64,000 nt of DNA from Acidobacteriota bacterium (GTDB taxonomy: Bacteria; Acidobacteriota; Terriglobia; Bryobacterales; UBA6623), in NCBI GenBank assembly GCA_016125275.1, contig WGMB01000009.1:124001-188000 (forward strand), written 5' to 3'. The notes beneath the pieces are model-generated. The model was not told the DNA's origin and did not search any database. It was given only the letters and a program-made list of their open reading frames with translations. Below, in pieces: positions 16,524 through 28,796 of this stretch (positions are counted from its first letter, which is position 1; every line of letters begins with the position of its first letter). Made by a program: the position numbers and the translations under genes.

Positions 16524-19500
16524 CTACTCCATGACCATCTGCAGCACCTGTTGCACGGACATCTCCATAGGCTCCAGCCGCATCCGGTCCAGCGTCACGT
16601 CCAGGTAGTAGCTGTCGGTCCAGGACGCTCGCGCCGCCGTCGGCGCCACCCCGCTCGACGGCGTATAGGCTGGAAACACCGCCGTCGCGTCCAGAGAGCC
16701 GTCCACGTAAACCGCCGCCCTCCGGCTCACGCCGTCGAAGGTTACCGCCACATGCGTCCACCGCCCCGGCGTCAGCGCCGAGCCGGACAGCAGCCAGGGG
16801 CTCGACGCCGGTCGGCCGGCCACGCAGACGATCACCCGCCCCGAGCCGTGCAGCCCCACGTACCAGCCCCGGTAGTCGCCGTCATAGGTGGAGAACAGCG
16901 TCCCCCACGACCCCGGCAGCGCGTTCGGCTTGACCCACGCCGACCAAGTGAACGCCGGCGCGTTCCAGGCCGGGTCCGCCGGCAGCAGGCCCACGTCCGG
17001 CCGCCCTTGGAACCGTCGCGCCCCGCCGAACAGCCCTGCTTCGGGAACCCCTCCCGAACCCGCCAGCACGCCGTCCCGGCCGCCCGGCCCCGCGTCCCGA
17101 AACGCCGCTCCCGCCTCCGCCGTCGTCTCATCGAGCTCCCAGCGCCCCAATGGCGCCGGACGCCGCGCCGCGTCGAGCTCCGCAAAGTCCGCCGCCACTT
17201 CCTCCGCTGACCGCTCGTAGTCATACAGCTTCACCCGGTCAGCGGCGTGCTTCAGCCACCCCGTCGCCCCCCACGAAGCCTTCCCAAACGTCGGCCGCAC
17301 GCCGGAAGCCGGCGCCCAGGCCCCAAACACCGCGCTGCCGGCGCGCTCGCCGTCCACGTAAATCAACCCCCGCCGCGACGGCCCGTCGAAGGTCGCCTCC
17401 ACGTGGTGCCAGCGCCCCAGCGTCAGCCCCTTGCTCGACAGCAACCACGGTCGCGACGCCGGCGGCCCCGTCACGCACAAGATCACCCGCGCGTCCTTGT
17501 AGACGCCCACGTACCAGCCGCCCACGTCGCCGTCGTAGGTGGAGAACAGCACGCCCCAGCTCTGCGGCGTCTCGTCGATGCGAACCCAGGCCGAGTAGCT
17601 GAAGCTCTGCGTCAGCAGCGCCGCATCGGCGTCGGCCGAAGCCCCGTCCGGCCAACCCTCGAAGCGCCGCGCCGCGCCGCTCAGGCCCGCCATCGGCCGC
17701 GTGCGGTCGGCCGCCGTGGTCGCATTGCGCCCGCCCACGCCGTCCACCAGCGCGACGCCCGCCCCCACGCCGGTCTCGTCCAGCTCCCAGCGGGCCACCA
17801 GCGATCCCGGAGCCGGGGTCGGCTCGGGCTGCGCCGCCGGAGGAGTCCACGAGGCCGCATCCGCCGCCAGCTCCGCCGCCGACCAAGGCCTCGCCTCGAT
17901 CCGTAGCTCATCCACATCGAACCGCGTAAACCGCGTCGCCGACCCCGCCGCCCGCCCCACCGTGAACTGCCCGTCGGCGCGCGGCTTCATGCCCGCCGCC
18001 AGCACGCTCTGCGCCGCCAACTTGCCGTCCAGGTAGAGCTGCGCCTGCTTCGACCAGGCCCTGTGCACCAGCGCCACGCGCCGCCACACGCCCAGCCCGA
18101 AAGGCTGCGGAGCCGTCACCGTCTCCGGCCCCGGCGCTCCGCCGAACGTCGCATACGGCCGCCCGTCAGCCCTCACGCCGACCTCCCAGCCGCTCGTCGC
18201 CCCCAGGTCCCCCGCCATCACGCCGCCGTTCGAGCTCGCCGGCAGCGCATTCAGCCGAGCCCAGAACAGCGCCGTAAAGTCGTCCGGGTTGAGCTGCTCG
18301 TGGTTCACCGCCAGCGCCGCGTCGGCCGCGCCGTCCAGCCGCAGCGCCTCATTGGCCACCCCGGGGATCGACAGCCCGCTCAGAGCCGCCGCCCGCCGGT
18401 TATTGCCGCTCGAGTCCGCTCCCCGGTCGGCCGCCGGAAAGCTCCACAGCGCCGGCGTCGCCAGGTTCACGATCGGCGCCGGCGGCGAAAACGAGGCGTA
18501 GTCGGCCGCAATCTCCTCCGCCGTGCGGACGCCCCGCTCCACCCGCGCCTCATCCAGGGCTCCCCGCAAAAAGTAGTTCTCCGTCCACGAAGCCTTCCCC
18601 AGCGTCACCGCATGCGAGACGTCCGGCTCGAGCCCCGGAAAGCGCGCCACGCGGTCCAGAACGCCGTCCACATACAGCCGCGCCTCGTTGGTCCCCCGGT
18701 CGTAGGTCGCCGTCAGCATGTGCCAGCGGCCGGACTGCAAGGTCGCCTGCGAGAGCAGCCACGGCGCCGAATCCGGCGGCTGCGCGGCCATCCACACCGC
18801 CCGGGGCCCCGGCGCCACGCCCAAGTACCAGCCCTTGAAGCTCGTCCCGCCAAAGGCCGACACCAGCAGCCCCGGCTTGGTCGGCGCCTCGCTCAGCCGC
18901 ACCCAGGCCCGCACCGTAAAGCGGTCGGGAACCTCCAGCGGCGCTCCCGTCGACAAGCCTTCCGTCCAGCCATTGAGCCGCTGCGCCAGCCCCCGCGCGC
19001 CCTCGATCGTCAGCCCCGGCCCGCCGCCCTCGAACGACCACTCCGCCAGCACGCCGGTCGGCTCCGGCGGCGCCGCCAGCGTCAGCGTCACCGGCACCTC
19101 CGTCGTCCCCGCCGCTCCCGCGCTGACGCGCACCACGCCCGCATAGGCCCCCGGAGTCGAGCCCGTCGCCGTCACCGTCACTTGGCCGGGCGCCCCGCCC
19201 GTCGCGGGGCTCGCCTGCAGCCAGCCCGCCCCCGCGGTCACCGCCGCCGTCCAGCTCAGCGTTCCGCCGCCGCTGTTGCGGATCTCCAGCGCCGCCGGCG
19301 CAACCGGCGTCCCGGCCACGCCCTGCAACGTCAGCGCCGCCGGCTGCACGCTCAGCCGCGGAGCCTCGGCCAACACCGGCAGCACCTGGATGTCGTCGAG
19401 ATACCAGCCCTCGTAGTTGTTGTTCGCGCTGGTGAAGGTGTCGAACTCGAAGCGCAGCCGAATCGTCCGGCCGGCAAAGCGCGACAGGTTCACCCGGTGC

Positions 19501-21821
19501 CGCACGAAGCCCTCGCCTGGCGTGGGATGCGCCAAGTGCGTCACCGCCTGCCAGGCCCCTCCGTCGGCCGAAACCCACAGCCGCCCCGAATCCAGGTTCA
19601 GATACGGCCCGTACACCCCGCCCAGGTAGTACCGCCGCCAAAAGCCCTCGTTGCGCAGCACCTGCTGCCACTCCACCGTCGCGCCGGCCGCGCCGGTCAG
19701 GTCGATCGGCGGCGAAACCAGCTCGCCCGCCTCCCTCTGGCCCGTCTGGTAGTCCGCCGCATCGGCCCGCCCGAAGCGCCAGGAGTAGCCGCCCGTGGCC
19801 GCCCGCCGCGTCGAACGGTGCCACAGCCCCGTCGCCGTCCAGCCTGAAGCCGCCTCGGCGCCCTCGCTCAGCAGCGCAGCCCCCGCCGCCGGCGGCGCTC
19901 CGCCGCAGTAGGTCGGCCGGTCGAAGGCCTCATACACGCTCACCGCCGTATCAGCCGCCTCGCCGCTCGCCACCGCGTTCAGCGCCGCCGAGGCTCCCAT
20001 GCCCCGCGCTGCGAACGCCGCCCACACCGCGCAAGCCCTCTCGCCGCCCAACGCCATCGCCTCGGCGGCCTGCAGCAAGGCGTCGCGCGCGTCCAGAAAC
20101 GACGGCCGCGACGGCGTCATCTTCAGCGCCTCGATCAGCAGCCGCGGAAAAGCCTCCGCCCCCACCGCCTGCCGCACATCCCACAGCGCTGACGCCCACA
20201 CCTCGCCGTCGGCGTGCGACTCCGGCAGCCCCGCCAACTGGTTCGACGGCGGCAGCAGCGTCACCCGCCGCACGCCCACCTGCCCGAACGTCAGCCCGCT
20301 CTGGTCGTAGCGCACCGTCCGCACGCCCGTCGAAGCGTTCGTGGAGGAGTACTCGCCGATCCGCGGCTCACCCGTGAAGGCGAACGCAAACGCATCCGAC
20401 CAGCCCTCTGACAGCCCCGCGCTCTGCAGCAGATACAGCGAGGCCGCGTTGAGCGGCCCGCCCACCAGCCGCGACGTCACGCCGTGGGCGTACTCATGGG
20501 TCAGGATGTCGCCGTCCAGCGCCGCGTCCCGCCGCACGCCCGGGTACAGGCCCACGTTCAGCCGCGGCGCGATGCCGTCGGGCGGCGTCAGAAACGTGGC
20601 GTTGCTCGGCGTCGCGCCGTCGTGGATGTCCACCCGCACCGCATCGCCGGTTCCCCCGCCCCGTCCGAAGTTCACCGCCTGGAAGTTCCCGTCCGGCTCC
20701 TTGAAGCCCAGCCCGTACAGCCAATCGTGCAGCGCATTGGTCCAATAGAAGGCGTTCACGAGCGCGAAGGCTCGGTCCGGCGCCGGGTCGTTGGTCAGCT
20801 TGTAGGAGTCGCTGAAGGGGAAGACCAGCGAGCCGTTCACCACCGCCGCCCGGCCGTCGCACACCTCGTCGCCGTTGAGGTCGAAGCACACGTCGGCGTT
20901 GTTGCCGAAGGTCCCCGAGCCGTCGGTCCAGCACCCGCCGGCCGCCGGTCCCCCGGCTCCGGGCGCGGGATAGACGCCCGCCGGACAAGCCCCGCCCGCC
21001 TGCGCCGGCCACCCCGACAGCGCCTGCACGGCCGGTGCGCCGGCGTCCGGATGGGGCGTCTGCGGAGCCCTCAGCACCGATCCCTGCGGCGTAGCCTCCC
21101 GCGCCAGGTTGAAGCTGAACAGGATGCGGCCGTCAACGGCGTCCACCGCCATCTCATACGGCTCCAGATACAAGCGCCAGGCCGGCCGCGCCTCGTCGCC
21201 CAGCGGAAACCAAACCAGGCTCGCCCGCACGGGTTCGCGCAGGTCGGGATGACGGAGAACGGTGGGGCGGGAAGGTTCGGACGAAGCGGACAGGATCTCC
21301 CAGGCGGCTTGCCGCGGCTGGTCCGGATCCAGTGCGCGTAGCGCGACCGCGGCGGCTTGGGCGGGCTCGAGCGTCAGCTCGAGCCCGCGTGGAGGGCGCG
21401 GCAGCCGCCCCCTGTGCAGTCGCAGCAGCCGCCCCGCCGGGTCCAGGTGGGCGATCACATCCCCCTCGTAGACCGGAATCCCCCCAAAGCGCGTCTGCAT
21501 CACCACCCGCTCGATCGAGCCGTCCGCGCTCGACGAGCGCGACACCGTGGCGTACTCCGGCGGCCCGGCCCCGGGCCGCCGCAGCGCCGGAGCCGACAGA
21601 AAGCCCTCCACGATGCTCTCGGCGTCCCGCGGGTCCGGCGGCGTCAGCGCTTCGCCCAGCCGATACAGCTCCGCCGGAGGCGTCCCGTCCGCCGGCCGCG
21701 TGGCAAACCGCACGTCATGCGCGTCGAGCTCCTCAACGCTCTGAGCCTGCCCAATGGATGCGAGGGAAACGGCCGTCGCCATGGTCCACAACCAGAGGGC
21801 GCGCCGGCTGTACGACGACAT
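16524..21821 (-). CDS. Secreted M36 (fungalysin-like) metallopeptidase with BACON-like and four LamG domains
   Basis: A 1765-residue Sec-exported protein (signal peptide ending near SIGQAQS). After a propeptide-like region the M36 peptidase carries the zinc site H442-E443-x-x-H446 (HEYAH) and the third ligand E472 in LSEGWSD. Later parts: a domain with bound strands at about 640-820, a BACON-like Ig domain near 825-910, and four concanavalin/LamG domains (about 920-1110, 1120-1310, 1320-1510 and 1520-1750). LamG3 and LamG4 are near copies of each other. LamG domains usually bind glycans, so the enzyme may attack substrate bound to polysaccharide. A ribosome site GAGGG precedes the ATG. Confidence 0.9.
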   Translation of the reverse strand: MSSYSRRALWLWTMATAVSLASIGQAQSVEELDAHDVRFATRPADGTPPAELYRLGEALTPPDPRDAESIVEGFLSAPALRRPGAGPPEYATVSRSSSADGSIERVVMQTRFGGIPVYEGDVIAHLDPAGRLLRLHRGRLPRPPRGLELTLEPAQAAAVALRALDPDQPRQAAWEILSASSEPSRPTVLRHPDLREPVRASLVWFPLGDEARPAWRLYLEPYEMAVDAVDGRILFSFNLAREATPQGSVLRAPQTPHPDAGAPAVQALSGWPAQAGGACPAGVYPAPGAGGPAAGGCWTDGSGTFGNNADVCFDLNGDEVCDGRAAVVNGSLVFPFSDSYKLTNDPAPDRAFALVNAFYWTNALHDWLYGLGFKEPDGNFQAVNFGRGGGTGDAVRVDIHDGATPSNATFLTPPDGIAPRLNVGLYPGVRRDAALDGDILTHEYAHGVTSRLVGGPLNAASLYLLQSAGLSEGWSDAFAFAFTGEPRIGEYSSTNASTGVRTVRYDQSGLTFGQVGVRRVTLLPPSNQLAGLPESHADGEVWASALWDVRQAVGAEAFPRLLIEALKMTPSRPSFLDARDALLQAAEAMALGGERACAVWAAFAARGMGASAALNAVASGEAADTAVSVYEAFDRPTYCGGAPPAAGAALLSEGAEAASGWTATGLWHRSTRRAATGGYSWRFGRADAADYQTGQREAGELVSPPIDLTGAAGATVEWQQVLRNEGFWRRYYLGGVYGPYLNLDSGRLWVSADGGAWQAVTHLAHPTPGEGFVRHRVNLSRFAGRTIRLRFEFDTFTSANNNYEGWYLDDIQVLPVLAEAPRLSVQPAALTLQGVAGTPVAPAALEIRNSGGGTLSWTAAVTAGAGWLQASPATGGAPGQVTVTATGSTPGAYAGVVRVSAGAAGTTEVPVTLTLAAPPEPTGVLAEWSFEGGGPGLTIEGARGLAQRLNGWTEGLSTGAPLEVPDRFTVRAWVRLSEAPTKPGLLVSAFGGTSFKGWYLGVAPGPRAVWMAAQPPDSAPWLLSQATLQSGRWHMLTATYDRGTNEARLYVDGVLDRVARFPGLEPDVSHAVTLGKASWTENYFLRGALDEARVERGVRTAEEIAADYASFSPPAPIVNLATPALWSFPAADRGADSSGNNRRAAALSGLSIPGVANEALRLDGAADAALAVNHEQLNPDDFTALFWARLNALPASSNGGVMAGDLGATSGWEVGVRADGRPYATFGGAPGPETVTAPQPFGLGVWRRVALVHRAWSKQAQLYLDGKLAAQSVLAAGMKPRADGQFTVGRAAGSATRFTRFDVDELRIEARPWSAAELAADAASWTPPAAQPEPTPAPGSLVARWELDETGVGAGVALVDGVGGRNATTAADRTRPMAGLSGAARRFEGWPDGASADADAALLTQSFSYSAWVRIDETPQSWGVLFSTYDGDVGGWYVGVYKDARVILCVTGPPASRPWLLSSKGLTLGRWHHVEATFDGPSRRGLIYVDGERAGSAVFGAWAPASGVRPTFGKASWGATGWLKHAADRVKLYDYERSAEEVAADFAELDAARRPAPLGRWELDETTAEAGAAFRDAGPGGRDGVLAGSGGVPEAGLFGGARRFQGRPDVGLLPADPAWNAPAFTWSAWVKPNALPGSWGTLFSTYDGDYRGWYVGLHGSGRVIVCVAGRPASSPWLLSGSALTPGRWTHVAVTFDGVSRRAAVYVDGSLDATAVFPAYTPSSGVAPTAARASWTDSYYLDVTLDRMRLEPMEMSVQQVLQMVME

Positions 21822-21946: not shown

Positions 21947-23134
21947 ATGCAGAAACTAGCGATTCATGGCGGCAAGCCGGTCCGCAGCCAGGAATACCCG
22001 GCCTGGCCCGTCTCCGGCCCGCGCGAGCTCGAGCTGTTGCAGCAGGTGCTCTTCTCGGCGCAGTGGGGCGGCTACCACGAGTACGTCGAGGAGTTCGAAA
22101 AGCTCTTCGCCGGACTGCACGACGCCCGCTTCGGCATCGCCGTCGCCAACGGCACCGTCGCGCTCGAAGCGATGTTGCAGGGCGCCGGCGTCAAGCCCGG
22201 CGACGAGGTCATCGTCCCCGCCCACAGCTTCATCGCCACCGCCACCGCCGTCTCGCGTATCGGCGCCAAACCGGTCTTCTGCGACATCGAGCGCGACACC
22301 TTCAACATCGACCCCGCCTCCGCCGAAGCCGCCGTCGGCCCCAAGACCCGCGCCATCATCGCCGTCCACTTCGGCGGCGTGCTGGCCGACATGGACCGGC
22401 TGGCCCGCCTGGCCGACAACGCCGGCCTGCTCCTGTTCGAAGACGCCGCCCACGCCCACGGCGCCGACTGGAAGGGCCGCCGCGCCGGCGGCATCGGCCT
22501 CGCCGGAACCTTCAGCTTCCAGAACTCCAAGGCCATGACCGCCGGCGAAGGCGGCATCATCATCACCAACGACGCCGACGTCGCCGCACAGGTGCGCTCT
22601 CTGGTCAACTGCGGCCGCAAGCCCGGCCACGGCTGGTTCGACCACTTCGAGCTCGGCACGAATCTGCGGATCACCGGCTTCCAGGCCGCCGTCCTGCTGG
22701 CCCAGCTCGAGCGCCTGCCCGAGCAGATCCGTCTGCGCCAGGCCAACGCCGAGCTGCTCAACACCAAGCACTCCACGCCCGGCGTCTACTTCCAGAAGGC
22801 GCCCGAGGGCGCCGTCGTCCAGACGCTCTACGTGCTGCCCGGCTGGGTCGACGAAGAGGTCCTCGGGGCCACCCGCGACGAGTTCCTCGAAGCCCTGCAA
22901 GCCGAGGGCGTCCCGGCCCGTCCCTGGTACCCTCACCCTCTCTACGCCAACCCCTTGTACGAAAAGCACCCCTACCGCAAGGTCTCCTGCCGCGTCGCCG
23001 AGCAGGCCTGCAAGGACTCCTTCTGGCTGCCCCAGCGCACCCTTATGGGCAACGACGAGGACACCAGCGACATCGTCCGCGCCATCGACAAGATCTACCA
23101 GACCTACAAGCCCGAGACCACCGCCGTCCAGTAG
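21947..23134 (+). CDS. DegT/DnrJ/EryC1/StrS-family aminotransferase
   Basis: A 395-residue PLP-dependent fold-type I enzyme of the sugar-aminotransferase family. These make amino sugars for glycans or antibiotics by transferring an amine to a keto sugar. The Schiff-base lysine is K195 in SFQNSKAMTAGEGG, and the family motif for cofactor binding is DAAHAHGA. No sugar-nucleotide genes are adjacent; the next gene is a TPP enzyme 75 bp on. The exact sugar substrate cannot be inferred. Confidence 0.92.
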   Translation: MQKLAIHGGKPVRSQEYPAWPVSGPRELELLQQVLFSAQWGGYHEYVEEFEKLFAGLHDARFGIAVANGTVALEAMLQGAGVKPGDEVIVPAHSFIATATAVSRIGAKPVFCDIERDTFNIDPASAEAAVGPKTRAIIAVHFGGVLADMDRLARLADNAGLLLFEDAAHAHGADWKGRRAGGIGLAGTFSFQNSKAMTAGEGGIIITNDADVAAQVRSLVNCGRKPGHGWFDHFELGTNLRITGFQAAVLLAQLERLPEQIRLRQANAELLNTKHSTPGVYFQKAPEGAVVQTLYVLPGWVDEEVLGATRDEFLEALQAEGVPARPWYPHPLYANPLYEKHPYRKVSCRVAEQACKDSFWLPQRTLMGNDEDTSDIVRAIDKIYQTYKPETTAVQ

Positions 23135-23209
23135 CAGGGCCGCCCTCCGGGGCGGCAAGGCGGGCCAGACTGTTATCCTTTCCCTTTACGAGAGGAATCG
23201 ATAACAGCA

Positions 23210-24883
23210 ATGCCCTCCGGCGCGGAACTTTTCTCCCAGAGTCTTCAGAAGCTCGACGTCTCCCACGTCTTCACCCTGGTCGGCGACCACCTCAACGAGG
23301 TCCTGCAAGTGCTGGACCGCGACGGCTTCACCATCGTTGACACCCGCCACGAGTCCGCCGCCGTCCACATGGCCGACGGCTACGCCCGCCTCACCGGCAA
23401 GCCCGCCGTGTCGCTGGTCACCGGCTCGCCCGGGCACACCAACTCCATCACCGGCCTGGCCACCGCCCAGGCCACCGGAGTGCCCCTGCTCGCCGTCAGC
23501 GGCATGTCCACCTCCAAGGTGCGCCACCGCAACGCCTTCCAGGACATGGACCAGTTGAGCTACGTCGGCGAAGGCGCCAAGTACTCCGCCGTCCCCGCCG
23601 ACCCCGGCCAGATCCCCTTCCACGTGCGCAAAGCCCTGCAGCAGGCCGTTACCGGCCGCCCGGGCGTCGGCCACCTGAGCATTCCGGTCGACCAGTTCAC
23701 CACCCGCGTGGACGACTTCTCGCCGTTGCCCTCCGGCCCCATCCAGATCCATCGCAGCCGCCCGGAGGCCATGGACGTCGCCCGCACCATCGACCTGCTC
23801 GACCGCGCCGAGCGCCCGGTCGTCATCGCCGGCGGCGGCGCCTGGTGGTCCGGCTGCTCCGAAGCCCTGCAGACCTTCATCGAGCGCGCCCAGACGCCTC
23901 TGTTCACCGTCACTTTGGCCCGCGGCGTGGTCTCTGACGAGCACCCTCTCTGCTTCGGCTACGCTGACGCCACCCTCAGCCGCGGCGCCGAGAGCGCCCT
24001 CAAGCAGGCCGACCTGGTGCTGGTGGTCGGCAAGCGCATCGACTACCGTCTGCGGCTGGGCGGCGCGCAGCTCTTCTCCCCCGACGCCAAGTTCGTCCAA
24101 ATCGACCTCGACCCCGGCGAGCTCGGCCTCAACCGCCCGCTCGAGGTCGGCATGCCCGTCGACGCCAAGGCCGCCCTCGAGGATCTCGCCGCCGCGCTCG
24201 AAGGCCGCACGCCCCCGGACCGCTCGTCCTGGATCGGCGAAATCCGCCGCGGCATGGAGGAGTACGCCGCCGAGGTCGAGCGGCGCGCCGATCAGCCCTC
24301 CGAGCCCATGCACCCGCTGCACTTCTACCGCGAGTTCCGCAAATGGGTCTCGCCCGACTCGACGCTCTGCTTCGACGGCGGCGACTTCGTGCACTGGGGC
24401 CGCTACTACATCCCGGCGCGCAAGCCCGGCCACTGGATGCGCCTCGGCGCCCTGGCCGGCCTCGGCGTCGCCTTTCCCATCTCGCTCACGGCCCAACTGC
24501 TGCGGCCCCAGCACAAGTCCATCCTCGTCACCGGCGACGGCTCCTTGGGCTTCTACCTGGCTGAGATGGACACCGCCGTGCGCTTCAACCTGCCCCTGAT
24601 CCTCATCGTCGGCAACGACGGCGGCTGGGGCATCGAGCGCGAGCTGCAGGCCGGCAACTACGGCCCCAAGACGGTCGCCTGCGAGTTGCGCCGCACCCGC
24701 TACGACCTGGTCATGAAGGGCTTCGGCGGCGACGGCGCCTACGTCGAAACGCCCGACCAGATCCGCCCCGCCCTCGACCGCGCCATGCAGAGCGACAAGC
24801 CGTTCCTCATCAACGTCGAGATCAAGGGCTCCGGCTCGCCCTTCACCGAGTACCAGTTGCGGGGCAAGAAGAAGCCGCAGTAA
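23210..24883 (+). CDS. Thiamine pyrophosphate enzyme, acetolactate-synthase-like large subunit
   Basis: A 557-residue enzyme with the three-domain layout of the ALS/pyruvate-decarboxylase family: N-terminal TPP-binding Pyr domain (catalytic Glu in DTRHESAAVHMADG), a central domain (GPIQIHRSRPEA onward) and the C-terminal PP domain with motif GDGSLGFYLAEMD...GND. No regulatory small subunit gene is adjacent, which speaks against biosynthetic acetolactate synthase. Relatives include oxalyl-CoA decarboxylase, glyoxylate carboligase and benzoylformate decarboxylase. The precise reaction is not decided. It may share a message with the upstream aminotransferase gene. Confidence 0.9.
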   Translation: MPSGAELFSQSLQKLDVSHVFTLVGDHLNEVLQVLDRDGFTIVDTRHESAAVHMADGYARLTGKPAVSLVTGSPGHTNSITGLATAQATGVPLLAVSGMSTSKVRHRNAFQDMDQLSYVGEGAKYSAVPADPGQIPFHVRKALQQAVTGRPGVGHLSIPVDQFTTRVDDFSPLPSGPIQIHRSRPEAMDVARTIDLLDRAERPVVIAGGGAWWSGCSEALQTFIERAQTPLFTVTLARGVVSDEHPLCFGYADATLSRGAESALKQADLVLVVGKRIDYRLRLGGAQLFSPDAKFVQIDLDPGELGLNRPLEVGMPVDAKAALEDLAAALEGRTPPDRSSWIGEIRRGMEEYAAEVERRADQPSEPMHPLHFYREFRKWVSPDSTLCFDGGDFVHWGRYYIPARKPGHWMRLGALAGLGVAFPISLTAQLLRPQHKSILVTGDGSLGFYLAEMDTAVRFNLPLILIVGNDGGWGIERELQAGNYGPKTVACELRRTRYDLVMKGFGGDGAYVETPDQIRPALDRAMQSDKPFLINVEIKGSGSPFTEYQLRGKKKPQ

Positions 24884-24912
24884 GAGCGGCCGCCTCGGCC
24901 CCTGAAACGCGA

Positions 24913-24946
24913 AAACGCCCCCGTGGGTCACTCCGCGGGGGCGTTT
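24913..24946. terminator. Bidirectional terminator hairpin
   Basis: Perfect 11-bp stem AAACGCCCCCG / CGGGGGCGTTT with a 12-nt loop, between the convergent ends of the TPP enzyme and RidA-like genes. T-rich on both sides (TTTCTGTTTC on plus, CGTTTTCGCGTTTC on minus). Confidence 0.85.
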
Positions 24947-24969
24947 CTGTTTCAAGTTCCGGCAGCGGC

Positions 24970-25425
24970 TTACGGGACCCAGGCGATCATGTCGATCTCG
25001 ACCTTCGTCTTCGCATCCGGAAACTCGATGCCGATCGCCGAACGCGAGGGCTTGATCGCTCCGGTGAAGAACTCGCCGTAGACCTTGTTCATCGCCGGCT
25101 TTTCGACCTTGATGTCCGCCATGTAGACGGTCACCTTCAGCACGTTGTCCAGCGACGTACCGGCTTCCGCCAGCGCCTTCTTGTGCTTTTCGAGCGTGGC
25201 GCGGGTCTGCTCTTCGATGGTGCCGCCGAAGTCCCCGTCGGAGACGCCGGTCAGCCCCGAGGTGAAGATCAGGTTGCCGATCTTCAGGCCCGCCGGGGTC
25301 TTCTCGATCTTGCCGCCGGCGGCCTCGGAGGGAACCGCCATCGCCATCGCGGCCAACCCGGCCGCGCCGCCCGCCTTGGCGGCCTGCTGCAGGAAATTGC
25401 GACGTTCTTTGGTGTTCTCAGCCAT
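24970..25425 (-). CDS. Tat-exported RidA-family protein, copy 1
   Basis: A 151-residue protein. The mature part (from about residue 40) is a RidA/YjgF/UK114 domain. RidA trimers hydrolyse reactive 2-aminoacrylate-type enamines/imines released by PLP enzymes. The key arginine is kept in KPSRSAIG, and the C-terminal VEIDMIAWV matches the family. The N-terminus ERRNFLQQAAKAGGAAGLAAM resembles a twin-arginine leader with RR and a hydrophobic stretch, so it is probably exported. It starts 7 bp after the SelA-like copy 1 stop. It pairs with that enzyme, and the other RidA gene pairs with the second one. Confidence 0.88.
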   Translation of the reverse strand: MAENTKERRNFLQQAAKAGGAAGLAAMAMAVPSEAAGGKIEKTPAGLKIGNLIFTSGLTGVSDGDFGGTIEEQTRATLEKHKKALAEAGTSLDNVLKVTVYMADIKVEKPAMNKVYGEFFTGAIKPSRSAIGIEFPDAKTKVEIDMIAWVP

Positions 25426-25432
25426 CGTTGTT

Positions 25433-26647
25433 CTACCCCTTCAGCTCTTCGCGCAGCCGGCGAGCCACCACGTCCTCGTCGCCGTCCTGCATCATCGACA
25501 CCGCCACGACCACCAAACCCTTGCCGCCGCCCGGCCGCAGCTCGATGTTCGGGCTGCCCTTGCGCAACCCTTCCACCACCTGCTCCCGCGTCCGGCCCAC
25601 CTTCGCCTCGTCCCAGGTCACTTCCAGGTGCGGAACGGCGTTGGCGATCTCCGGCACGAAGACCTTCGTCTGCACCGTCTTGGCCTTCTTCACTTCCTTG
25701 GCCACCACGTCGCAGCGCTTCTCCCACATCTTCCACTCGGCTTCGTGATCCAGTTTTACGAAGCGCTCCACCGCCGCCAGCATGCCCACCAGCTCTTCCT
25801 TGTTGACCTTGTTGGTGCGGCACAGCGAATCCGAGTTCGGCGAGGCGTTCATCCGCGCCGCCGCGATCAGGTCCTTGCGGCCCAGCAGCAGGCCGGCCGA
25901 CTGCGGTCCGCGCATGCCCTTGCCGCCCGAAAACGCCACCAGGTCGAAGCCGAGGCCCTGGAACTTGTACAGGTTCTCCACCGGCGGCACGTCGGCGGCG
26001 GCGTCGATCAGCGTCGGGATCCCGTGCTTCTTGCCCAGCGCCACGAACTCTTCGTGCTTGATCTTGCCTTCCGGCGTGGCGTGGTTCAGGTAGAACATCA
26101 TCGCCGTCTTGTGGTTGACCGCCCGCTCCAGCTCCTGGGCCGTCTCCACCTCGATCATCGTCACGCCGGCGTTGCGGATCGCGTGGTCATAGCCGTTGCG
26201 GTGCGACTTCTGGCAGATGACCTCGTTCTTCATGTGGTGCGTGTCGGGCAGCATCTGGATCTTGTCGCGATCCGCGCCGGCCACGCACGCCGCCGTCGCC
26301 TGCGACAGCGCCGAGGCGCAGCCCGCGCTCACCAGCGCCGACTCCGCCTTCACCAGCTCCGCGATGCGCTTGCCCACCGCGTCATGCAGCTCGATCAGGT
26401 TGACGTACTTCGTCGCCGCCGACGTAATGGCGCCGATGACTTCCGGCGGCATCAGCGACGCCGTCAGCGTCGTGTAGGTGCCCGCCGCGTTGATGAACGA
26501 CTGAACGCCGAGCTCGGCGATCAGATCGCGCTCGGCCGCGCCGGAGCGCGCCGCCGCCGAAGCGGCCGAAGGCAGCAGGCCCCCGACCAGCGGCAGCCCA
26601 GCCAGGCTGCCCAGAAACTTGCGCCGATTCGCATTCTTCCAGATCAT
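25433..26647 (-). CDS. Tat-exported SelA-like PLP enzyme, copy 1
   Basis: A 404-residue fold-type I PLP protein of the selenocysteine-synthase/D-glucosaminate-6-phosphate ammonia-lyase superfamily. The Schiff-base lysine is K243 in AFSGGKGMRGPQ, and the cofactor aspartate is in IDAAAD. Its N-terminus NRRKFLGSLAGLPLVGGLL looks like a Tat signal. True SelA works on tRNA in the cytoplasm, so this one must have another substrate. The SD GAGAGGGG precedes the ATG. It lies in the same minus-strand run as the second pair; the upstream RidA stop is 60 bp away. Confidence 0.87.
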   Translation of the reverse strand: MIWKNANRRKFLGSLAGLPLVGGLLPSAASAAARSGAAERDLIAELGVQSFINAAGTYTTLTASLMPPEVIGAITSAATKYVNLIELHDAVGKRIAELVKAESALVSAGCASALSQATAACVAGADRDKIQMLPDTHHMKNEVICQKSHRNGYDHAIRNAGVTMIEVETAQELERAVNHKTAMMFYLNHATPEGKIKHEEFVALGKKHGIPTLIDAAADVPPVENLYKFQGLGFDLVAFSGGKGMRGPQSAGLLLGRKDLIAAARMNASPNSDSLCRTNKVNKEELVGMLAAVERFVKLDHEAEWKMWEKRCDVVAKEVKKAKTVQTKVFVPEIANAVPHLEVTWDEAKVGRTREQVVEGLRKGSPNIELRPGGGKGLVVVAVSMMQDGDEDVVARRLREELKG

Positions 26648-26707
26648 CTTTCCCCTCTCTTATGGCTCGCGGGCCGCCCCGAGGGAGGGCCCGCCGCCTC
26701 TCGGCCG

Positions 26708-27172
26708 TCAGTCGACGTAGGCGATACAGTCGATCTGCAGCAGTTGTCCCTTGCGCCGAAAACCCGTGGCGCCGAAGTACGAACGGACCGGACGAGGGTC
26801 CTTGAAGAACGTCTCGTAGACCTTGTTCATCGGCTCCCAGTTGTTCTCCGGGTCGACGAGCGAGACCTGCACCTTCAGGACATTGTCCATCGAGCTGCCG
26901 GCCTTTTCCAGAGCATTCTTCATGATCGTGAGCGCGTCGCCGGTCTGCTGGCCCGCGTCGCCGGGGCCCTCGGGCCGGCGGTCCGGATACCAGCCGCCGA
27001 TCCCGCTCAGAAACAGCAGGTTGCCCGAACGGATCGGCCCACCCACGCGCTCCTTCTTGGGATGCCAGGTCTCGGCCGCGCCGGCCGAAGCCGCCCCGGC
27101 CAGACCAAGCGCGGCGGCGCTGAACGCCGCCCGTCGCGTGCTGGTCGCTTTGTCCTTTTTCTTGTCCGCCAT
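26708..27172 (-). CDS. Tat-exported RidA-family protein, copy 2
   Basis: A 154-residue RidA/YjgF domain protein behind a leader STRRAAFSAAALGLAGAASAG, a twin-arginine type signal. The catalytic arginine is kept (PVRSYFGA), and the tail LLQIDCIAYV is the family's last strand. It differs markedly from the first RidA protein, so the duplication is old. It starts 13 bp after the stop of SelA-like copy 2, with GAGAGG as ribosome site, suggesting co-translation with that enzyme. Expected role: hydrolysis of imine products of its partner. Confidence 0.88.
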   Translation of the reverse strand: MADKKKDKATSTRRAAFSAAALGLAGAASAGAAETWHPKKERVGGPIRSGNLLFLSGIGGWYPDRRPEGPGDAGQQTGDALTIMKNALEKAGSSMDNVLKVQVSLVDPENNWEPMNKVYETFFKDPRPVRSYFGATGFRRKGQLLQIDCIAYVD

Positions 27173-27185
27173 GAACCGGCCTCTC

Positions 27186-28796
27186 TTACGCGTTGTCCTT
27201 GTTCACCGGCGCCAAATTGGCCGCCATCTTGCCGTAACCGTGGCGCTTGGCCGTGAAGCGCGCGCCCGGGTACTCGCCCAGATCCAGCGAGCCCGCCATG
27301 CGGTCGCCGTCCACCTTGCCCTTGAAGGTGTAGTGCAGGGTCGTGCCCTCGATCTTCAGCGAGCTCGAGAACTCCACTTCGTCGCCCCAGGCCTTGCCCT
27401 TGATCGGTCCGTTCTTCACCGACCCGAAGTGCGTGCCCACCAAGTTCGCGCCGTCGGCGTCCAGGAACACCAAGTGCTGCGCCGAGCCCTTCTGGAACTC
27501 CACGCTCACGTCCCAACGTCCGGTCACGTCGCCCTTCGGCGCCGGCAGAGCCTTCTTCGGCTTCGGCGCCGGAGCGCTCGACAGAATCTCCGCCAGCCGC
27601 TCGGCCACGATCTTGTACTCGTCGGGCTTCATCGCCACCGGCCGAATCGTGAAGCTGCTGCCGTCGCCGGCCGCGTGCGTCATGATCGCCGGGTTGCCGT
27701 CCAGCAGCAGGTCATGCACCTCGCCGGCCGTCAAGCCCGTCTTGCTCGGGTCCCAGGAAACCGACAGCGTCGGGAACGGGCCGCCGCGGCTCGGACCCTT
27801 CACCTCGGTCTTCACGCCGGCCACCTTCGTGACCTTGTCGTTGATGTACTGGTACCAGCCTTCCCACTCTTTGTACTCGGCCTTGATGTCGCGGCTGTTC
27901 ACCCACACCTCGACCGCGGCCACCATGCCCACGATCTCTTCCTTGCTCACCTTCATCGGGCGGCCGAAAGCGTGGTGCGGAGCCGAGTTCGCCCAGGCGG
28001 CGCGGATCAGGTCCTCGCGGCCCAGCAGCATGCCCGCCGTCTGCGGCCCGCGCGTGATCTTGCCGCCCGAACAGGCGACCAGATCCGCTCCGGCGGCGAT
28101 GTACGGGTTCGGCACGATCAGGTAGTCGGCGGCGGCGTCCACCACGACCGGCAGCCCGGCGGCCTTGGCGATCGGCGCCACTTCCTCCAGGCCCAGCTTC
28201 ACCTTGTCGAAGCGGTTGCCCAGCACCATCACGAAGGCCGTCTCGTGGCTGATGGCGGCCTTCAGCTCCTCCACCGAATCCACTTCCACGGTCTTCAGGC
28301 CGCACATGCGCACGGCGTGGTCATAGGCGTTGCGCGAGGACTTCGGGATGATGACCTCGGTCTTCAAGCCGGTCAGATCCGGCAACTGCTGCATCCGCTC
28401 CGGGTCCATGCCCGCCACGATGCCCGAAGCCGCGTGCGCCAGCGCGCCGGCCGCGCCGGAAGTTACCATCGCCGCCGGAACCTTCAGCAGCGTCGAAATG
28501 CGCTTGCCGGCGGCGTCCATCAGATCGTCGATATCTACGTGATAGTGCGAGGCGTGCTCGATCGCCTCGATCACTTCGGGCAACAGACGCGAGCCGCCGT
28601 TGATCGTCAGCGTCGCGGTGCAGTTGATGAAAGGCTTCGCGCCGATGCGCGTGTAGACGTCAGGCGGCGGCTCCATCACGGGGGCGGCGGCCGAAGCGGC
28701 CTCCAACGGACGGGCGCCTGCGTCGGCGAGGAGGGCCGCAATGGCGGCCGTGGAGCCCAGCCATTGACGCCGGGTGGATCGATTTGGGGACGACAT
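27186..28796 (-). CDS. Tat-exported SelA-like PLP enzyme, copy 2, with C-terminal extension
   Basis: A 536-residue paralogue of the 25433-26647 protein. The leader NRSTRRQWLGSTAAIAALLA has the twin-arginine pattern. The PLP lysine is K246 in CSGGKITRGPQ. Beyond about residue 415 it has an extra ~110-residue tail, after a Pro/Lys linker, that begins GDVTGRWDVSVEF and alternates beta strands. It may form a small barrel or lipocalin-like domain. The start is secure: AGGAGG seven bases before the ATG. It is the first gene of a four-gene minus-strand set. Confidence 0.87.
   Translation of the reverse strand: MSSPNRSTRRQWLGSTAAIAALLADAGARPLEAASAAAPVMEPPPDVYTRIGAKPFINCTATLTINGGSRLLPEVIEAIEHASHYHVDIDDLMDAAGKRISTLLKVPAAMVTSGAAGALAHAASGIVAGMDPERMQQLPDLTGLKTEVIIPKSSRNAYDHAVRMCGLKTVEVDSVEELKAAISHETAFVMVLGNRFDKVKLGLEEVAPIAKAAGLPVVVDAAADYLIVPNPYIAAGADLVACSGGKITRGPQTAGMLLGREDLIRAAWANSAPHHAFGRPMKVSKEEIVGMVAAVEVWVNSRDIKAEYKEWEGWYQYINDKVTKVAGVKTEVKGPSRGGPFPTLSVSWDPSKTGLTAGEVHDLLLDGNPAIMTHAAGDGSSFTIRPVAMKPDEYKIVAERLAEILSSAPAPKPKKALPAPKGDVTGRWDVSVEFQKGSAQHLVFLDADGANLVGTHFGSVKNGPIKGKAWGDEVEFSSSLKIEGTTLHYTFKGKVDGDRMAGSLDLGEYPGARFTAKRHGYGKMAANLAPVNKDNA

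Follow-up and report, generated by a model that had tools for sequence, protein, structure and literature searches.

D-Glucosaminate-6-P ammonia-lyase (DGL, also DgaE; EC 4.3.1.29; PDB 7LC0) and Cap15 (PDB 8T7J) are the solved structures nearest to two pyridoxal phosphate (PLP) enzymes encoded in a 64,000-nucleotide stretch of an Acidobacteriota bacterium genome (contig WGMB01000009.1, positions 124,001 to 188,000; hereafter the window), where each PLP enzyme gene is followed by a gene for a RidA protein and all four products have a leader of the twin-arginine translocation (Tat) type. DGL is intracellular and acts on a phosphorylated substrate. Cap15 is a biosynthetic, phosphate-dependent enzyme, the PLP-dependent monooxygenase-decarboxylase of capuramycin biosynthesis, and its own substrate is a beta-hydroxy-alpha-amino acid, a likeness to the substrates considered below; we know of no exported RidA partner for it. 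SelA (L-seryl-tRNA(Sec) selenium transferase) belongs to the same superfamily, but its role is tRNA-specific and its tRNA is not expected outside the cytoplasm. RidA/YjgF proteins with the catalytic arginine, which is the mark of the imine-hydrolysing Rid subfamilies, are encoded beside threonine dehydratase and other PLP enzymes, as in the window, but the text describing them contains neither 'signal peptide' nor 'periplasm' (PMC4433059). PvdN and PtaA of Pseudomonas are PLP enzymes that Tat exports in the folded state, complete with PLP; they tailor siderophores, belong to other PLP families and have no RidA partner in that description (PMC6206403). In the ong cluster of Pseudoalteromonas, which deals with an oxidised chitin sugar, an N-acyl hydrolase (deacetylase), a PLP deaminase and a RidA protein are all needed for growth on GlcNAc1A, and the role of RidA there is unknown (PMC9537276). 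Exported PLP enzymes and RidA proteins beside PLP enzymes are thus each known, but we found no exported SelA-like/RidA pair, nor this conserved combination, in the open-access literature.

The four open reading frames (ORFs) lie on the minus strand at 24970-28796, in the transcription order PLP1, RidA1, PLP2, RidA2, with intergenic gaps of 13, 60 and 7 bp. Their G+C content at third codon positions (0.85-0.93) is in line with real genes at such G+C. PLP1 (27186-28796, minus; 536 amino acids, aa) and PLP2 (25433-26647, minus; 404 aa) are predicted exported PLP enzymes of the DGL/Cap15 branch, the former called SelA-like, with the Schiff-base lysines Lys246 and Lys243, respectively. RidA1 (26708-27172, minus; 154 aa) and RidA2 (24970-25425, minus; 151 aa) are predicted exported RidA proteins; both have the catalytic arginine, and at the position of RidA Glu120 the former has Gln and the latter Glu. 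The sequence-only reading of this DNA had described four minus-strand genes with 7-60 bp gaps, a twin-arginine-like leader on each, the lysines K243 and K246 and the catalytic arginine in both RidA proteins. These coordinates, spacings and residues agree with our ORF calls, the lysine column holds Lys in 136 of 137 homologues, with K246 and K243 invariant in both alignments, and the RidA arginine is present in 55 of the 56 sequences in the set.

Conservation of the pairing between an exported PLP enzyme and RidA is well supported. We surveyed 61 genomes of the same family and order, 44 of which have listed PLP places; the counts from this survey are places among the matches listed. PLP and RidA genes are no more than 500 bp apart at 20 places, versus about 0.45 expected from their densities, in 17 of the 44 genomes, and within 3.5 kb at 31 places versus 1.45 expected. 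In the tandem listed pairs RidA is downstream of the PLP gene, apart from one listed pair that PLP2 makes with the RidA1 gene of its own cluster. The pairing recurs across several genera and in both orientations, and contigs of Bacteroidota metagenome-assembled genomes (L112-L115) have it with twin-arginine (RR) leaders on both partners. Adjacency elsewhere had been set beforehand as a test of the sequence-only reading, and it was found. It may be asked whether large paralogous families simply meet by chance, without any function in the adjacency. With up to 24 PLP genes and about 25 amidohydrolase-family matches per genome some pairs are expected, but the excess within 500 bp, the recurrence in several genera and another phylum, and the lack of PLP neighbours among 26 non-exported RidA proteins make this explanation very improbable, even though a Poisson value overstates independence by ignoring the shared ancestry of the genomes.

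Both RidA proteins have the PF01042 domain (cut-off 27 bits; RidA1 63 bits, E 3e-17; RidA2 78 bits, E 1e-21) together with the catalytic arginine, as imine-hydrolysing RidA proteins do, and both are below the cut-off of the NCBI Rid subfamily model TIGR00004 (106 bits; 47.5 and 65.2 bits). The RidA proteins with leaders form their own clade, which spans phyla: 52 of the 53 leadered sequences fall in a clade of 54, with support of 0.92. At loci found by the RidA searches, a PLP gene lies within 1.5 kb for 9 of 22 RidA proteins of this clade versus 0 of 26 others (Fisher p 3e-4). Another arrangement of the domain occurs in the window's genome, where three RidA domains stand in a row in one open frame (3x-RidA type; G000:C2:36965-38050 and G000:C20:191195-192196).

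Export of the module proteins is well supported by leaders across the family, and the four proteins of the window are probably exported via Tat. In each of them an RR motif and then a hydrophobic stretch precede the folded domain, as in Tat substrates, according to a rule-based reading. The leaders, listed as RRQWLGSTAAIAALLA, RRAAFSAAALGLAGAASA, RRKFLGSLAGLPLVGGLLPSAASA and RRNFLQQAAKAGGAAGLAAMAMA, extend over about aa 1-36 of PLP1 (STRRQWLGSTAAIAALLADAGA; 28689-28796, minus), aa 1-33 of RidA1 (STRRAAFSAAALGLAGAASAGAAE; 27074-27172, minus), aa 1-32 of PLP2 (NRRKFLGSLAGLPLVGGLLPSAASA; 26552-26647, minus) and aa 1-36 of RidA2 (ERRNFLQQAAKAGGAAGLAAMAMA; 25318-25425, minus). RidA2 alone among the four passes the Tat-signal model TIGR01409 (21-23 bits, cut-off 16.7), and homologues in L142 and L112 are also above this cut-off. 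The leaders of PLP1 and PLP2 have low confidence in AlphaFold models (predicted local confidence, pLDDT, <50 for aa 1-36 of PLP2), as is expected of signal peptides, and TatC is encoded in the window's genome. Retention of leaders in homologues was the other test set beforehand, and this comparison is stronger evidence than the signal model. For 60 places drawn at random from the 139 listed in relatives, the strict leader rule held for 55 PLP homologues and RR was present in all 60; the five others have RR with a shorter or charged hydrophobic stretch. The background for the strict rule was 55 of 335 other genes, an approximate value as the domain start was assumed. Among the 14 PLP paralogues in the window's genome, 13 have an RR leader and one has no leader; some leaders contain a lipobox-like cysteine (LGGC, LPGC), and several resemble those of Tat lipoproteins.

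The leaders might instead be membrane anchors or mis-called starts, the pair being cytoplasmic like the known RidA/PLP-enzyme neighbours, whose clustering is well known (PMC4433059). The genes were called from the open frame only, and neither TIGR01409 nor PF10518 matches the leaders of PLP1, RidA1 and PLP2. Against this stand the RR motif and hydrophobic stretch in the randomly drawn homologues and in 13 of the 14 paralogues, the single RidA clade across phyla, the L142 and L112 matches, TatC and the low model confidence of the leaders, and we regard a cytoplasmic location as quite improbable.

PLP1 and PLP2 were assigned to the SelA/DgaE-type fold I PLP enzymes. Sequence E values to DGL (7lc0) and Cap15 (8t7j) are 1e-32 to 1e-38, and the fold matches have template-modelling (TM) scores of 0.85-0.87, normalised by target. 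Cap15 is the best match of PLP2 by both sequence and fold, and for PLP1 it is level with DGL. SelA is behind, with about 20% identity and a TM score of about 0.6 versus 0.85 for DGL/Cap15, and membership in SelA was rejected because the scores with the TIGR00474 model (PLP1 26 bits, PLP2 41 bits) are below its cut-off of 268 bits. The 'SelA-like' lyase of the sequence-only reading is therefore right as to superfamily but too loose, since DGL and Cap15 are nearer. A lyase reaction is likely but not firm because Cap15 carries out O2-dependent decarboxylation, not elimination. Membership in DGL/DgaE was rejected as well: matches to TIGR01437 (PLP1 171 bits, E 3e-50; PLP2 187 bits, E 6e-55) are under the 385-bit cut-off and those to NF047797 (170 and 151 bits) under the 600-bit cut-off, and the His162-His163 pair and the Arg301/332/346 triad of DGL are missing, although its Schiff-base lysine and Arg226 are kept. 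The DGL lysine is residue 213 in the chain numbering used here and Lys-217 in the paper. In one PLP1-type homologue, L283:5357-7006 (G009:C61), Met occupies the catalytic-lysine column, and this protein is possibly a pseudoenzyme.

The Lys-x-x-Lys-Glu motif, which we take to hold the two essential lysines of Cap15, Lys262/Lys265, is invariant or nearly so in the PLP1 and PLP2 alignments. PLP1 and PLP2 thus have both the fold and the motif of Cap15, but the motif is also in DGL and does not discriminate. The residues at the phosphate site, Arg301/332/346 in DGL, are T/H/V in PLP1 and H/R/S in PLP2; the full triad is present in DGL and Cap15 and occurs together in no exported homologue, which fits an unphosphorylated substrate. 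The Arg226 column has Arg or Lys in 127 of 139 sequences and Arg in both PLP1 and PLP2; in a docked model of DGL, Arg226 is near the alpha-carboxylate (PMC9529869). At the His162-His163 site PLP1 has NRFD and PLP2 has NHAT. The HH pair is retained, in the motif RSHH, in just three exported homologues: L010 (5933-7165, G000:C12, in the window's genome), L257 and L259. An EF_0837-type amidohydrolase gene is beside L010 and L259, and RidA is near none of the three. Loss of the HH motif was considered as an explanation of RidA presence across paralogues, but three such homologues give no statistical power and we leave it as a lead.

The neighbourhoods of the PLP-RidA pairs resemble a catabolic or scavenging locus. 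PRK09237/EF_0837-type amidohydrolase genes lie within 500 bp of a PLP gene at 9 places versus 0.58 expected, and by eye several of these amidohydrolases have a Sec-like signal sequence at the N-terminus. Elsewhere in the class and phylum (genomes with L216-L220, L211, L225-L227) the order outer-membrane receptor, RraA-like, PLP2-type, RidA, PLP1-type and amidohydrolase is found in whole or in part; RraA-like aldolases and TonB-type receptors are sometimes present in PLP-RidA clusters. In f3 genomes (L146-L150, L152), a PLP2-type gene is directly beside the gene for the glucuronate isomerase UxaC, with a gene for an exported RidA and, at some of these loci, DUF362 and GHL6 glycosidase genes close by, and this adjacency hints at uronate or amino-sugar-acid catabolism. 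MlrC (M81) proteins are occasional neighbours of PLP and exported RidA genes (L157:12036-13571; L018:10564-12111, the latter by eye). On G044:C45, G044:C8 and G053:C33, a RidA-family gene is within 165 bp of an EF_0837-type amidohydrolase gene, and no listed PLP gene is within 3.5 kb.

From these comparisons we infer the reaction and the substrate class of PLP1 and PLP2. We favour, with evenly balanced confidence, the interpretation that the four genes are one unit of two extracytoplasmic deamination pairs acting on unphosphorylated (beta-hydroxy) amino acids or sugar-amino acids. The PLP enzyme would bind PLP and fold in the cytoplasm and leave it folded via Tat. Its extracytoplasmic substrate would be an alpha-amino acid that bears no phosphate and probably has a hydroxyl on the beta carbon or a side chain of the sugar-acid type; enzyme and substrate would form an external aldimine, from which loss of water would give an enamine. 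Because PLP1 and PLP2 are without the His163 proton donor of DGL, the enamine or imine would then be released, and the co-exported RidA would hydrolyse it to a 2-oxo acid and ammonia. In the H163A variant of DGL catalysis is intact and the enamine is released to solution, the state expected here, and the authors name RidA as a remover of such products (PMC9529869). PLP1 and PLP2 may thus be like natural counterparts of DGL H163A, which would be a concrete reason for a RidA partner. At the related loci, an exported amidohydrolase could release the amino acid by cleaving an N-acyl precursor, sometimes together with an RraA-like aldolase and a TonB-type receptor. The ong pathway would be the best functional analogue, although OngC is of fold III and not homologous to PLP1/PLP2, and OngB and OngC are predicted to be cytoplasmic.

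Several points weigh against this interpretation. The alignment of the loop is gapped, and another residue could take the place of His163, for example the histidine in the PLP2 sequence NHATPEG. Free enamines decay alone within seconds, so that the need for an extracellular RidA is not obvious. In about half of the close pairs the two genes converge and do not form an operon, and the pairing, recurrent as it is across genomes, is not general: RidA is within about 5.5 kb at only 10 of 60 random PLP loci. Since most PLP paralogues have no RidA nearby, RidA is either not obligatory or acts in trans. The three leaders that the Tat models leave unmatched also count here, as does Cap15, which is equally close and catalyses O2-dependent monooxygenation-decarboxylation.

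The exported PLP enzymes may accordingly be of the Cap15 kind, O2-dependent oxidases or monooxygenase-decarboxylases at work in an O2-rich site, where RidA would hydrolyse the imine from the oxidation or reshape the product. The rank of Cap15 as best match of PLP2 and level match of PLP1 agrees with this, as does the motif with the presumed essential lysines (PMC6411801), and a comparable decarboxylating oxygenation is known from PvdN, which is itself exported by Tat (PMC7497351, PMC6206403). An imine from an oxidative reaction would also suit RidA. However, the lysine motif is shared with DGL, the phosphate-dependent Cap15 keeps the three arginines that these enzymes lack, and the clusters with amidohydrolase, RraA, uronate isomerase or TonB-type receptor genes look catabolic, unlike the antibiotic cluster of Cap15. 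The catabolic neighbours and the lack of a phosphate site lead us to prefer elimination, to which we give about an even chance, over oxidation, which we consider unlikely. Still less probable is that the enzymes catalyse some other reaction of extracytoplasmic amino acids, for instance their racemisation, their transamination or an aldol cleavage like that of D-threonine aldolase, and that RidA has a protective role or acts on an unrelated amine. PLP enzymes of this branch do have weak matches to models for archaeal Ala/Glu racemase and for Cys/Met lyase, and PtaA is a periplasmic PLP transaminase (PMC6206403), but DGL and Cap15 are the nearest characterised proteins and the conserved RidA linkage best fits imine or enamine chemistry.

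The two pairs had been described as a duplicated module, which is misleading. PLP1 and PLP2 are 43% identical, RidA1 and RidA2 40%, and far closer relatives of each exist in other genomes; a recent tandem duplication was rejected on these grounds and by the tree. PLP1 groups with proteins of 64-66% identity whose genes immediately precede those of RidA1 orthologues in G014, G015 and G017, and PLP1-RidA1 is the older conserved pair. PLP2 groups with proteins of about 60-65% identity, mostly without RidA, and the partner of the wider PLP2 clade is a different branch of exported RidA, next to uronate isomerase in f3 genomes. RidA2 orthologues elsewhere are mostly away from such PLP genes. Since the relatives of PLP1-RidA1 and of PLP2/RidA2 differ in this way, the window joins two pairs of different history. 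The 14 paralogues in the window's genome (G000) include those at C12:387453-389883, C10:734540 and C14:107419; the relatives G005, G007 and G009 have 21-24, with RR leaders in nearly all sampled.

PLP1 also has a C-terminal domain (aa 421-520; 27237-27536, minus), eight-stranded and beta-barrel-like in the structure model, for which a Pfam search gave no match. The four genes, closely spaced on one strand, are probably transcribed as one unit. A G+C-rich hairpin followed by TTTT lies 3' of RidA2 (24910-24945, minus) and is likely the intrinsic terminator of this unit, a claim based on folding (24891-24969 folds at -48.6 kcal/mol) and not on the consensus promoter and terminator scan, in which the number of sites was no higher than in shuffles and this hairpin was unlisted. 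Convergent to the operon on the plus strand (21947-24883) are genes for a DegT/DnrJ aminotransferase and a thiamine pyrophosphate enzyme (acetolactate-synthase-like, under cut-offs). Beyond them, 16524-21821 encodes a 1765-aa signal-peptide protein that by eye resembles an M36-type metallopeptidase with repeats of laminin-G-like domains C-terminal to it.

In a wider view, we tentatively propose, with somewhat less than even confidence, that an extracytoplasmic pathway is widespread in the phylum and in Bacteroidota, in which an exported amidohydrolase, a Tat-exported PLP lyase and a Tat-exported RidA, sometimes with an RraA-like aldolase, degrade oxidised amino sugars or N-acyl derivatives of (beta-hydroxy) amino acids; an entire deamination route of PLP enzyme and RidA would thus lie outside the cytoplasm. 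RidA is known as a guardian of cytoplasmic PLP enzymes. If the interpretation is true, the exported RidA clade and the exported PLP enzymes would mean that enamine damage control is needed, or is a step of a pathway, outside the cytoplasm. The chemical idea becomes testable, since loss of the His163 proton donor should make RidA necessary. It would also give a function to a large exported family, which reaches about 24 copies in a genome, and would suggest a nitrogen-scavenging route.

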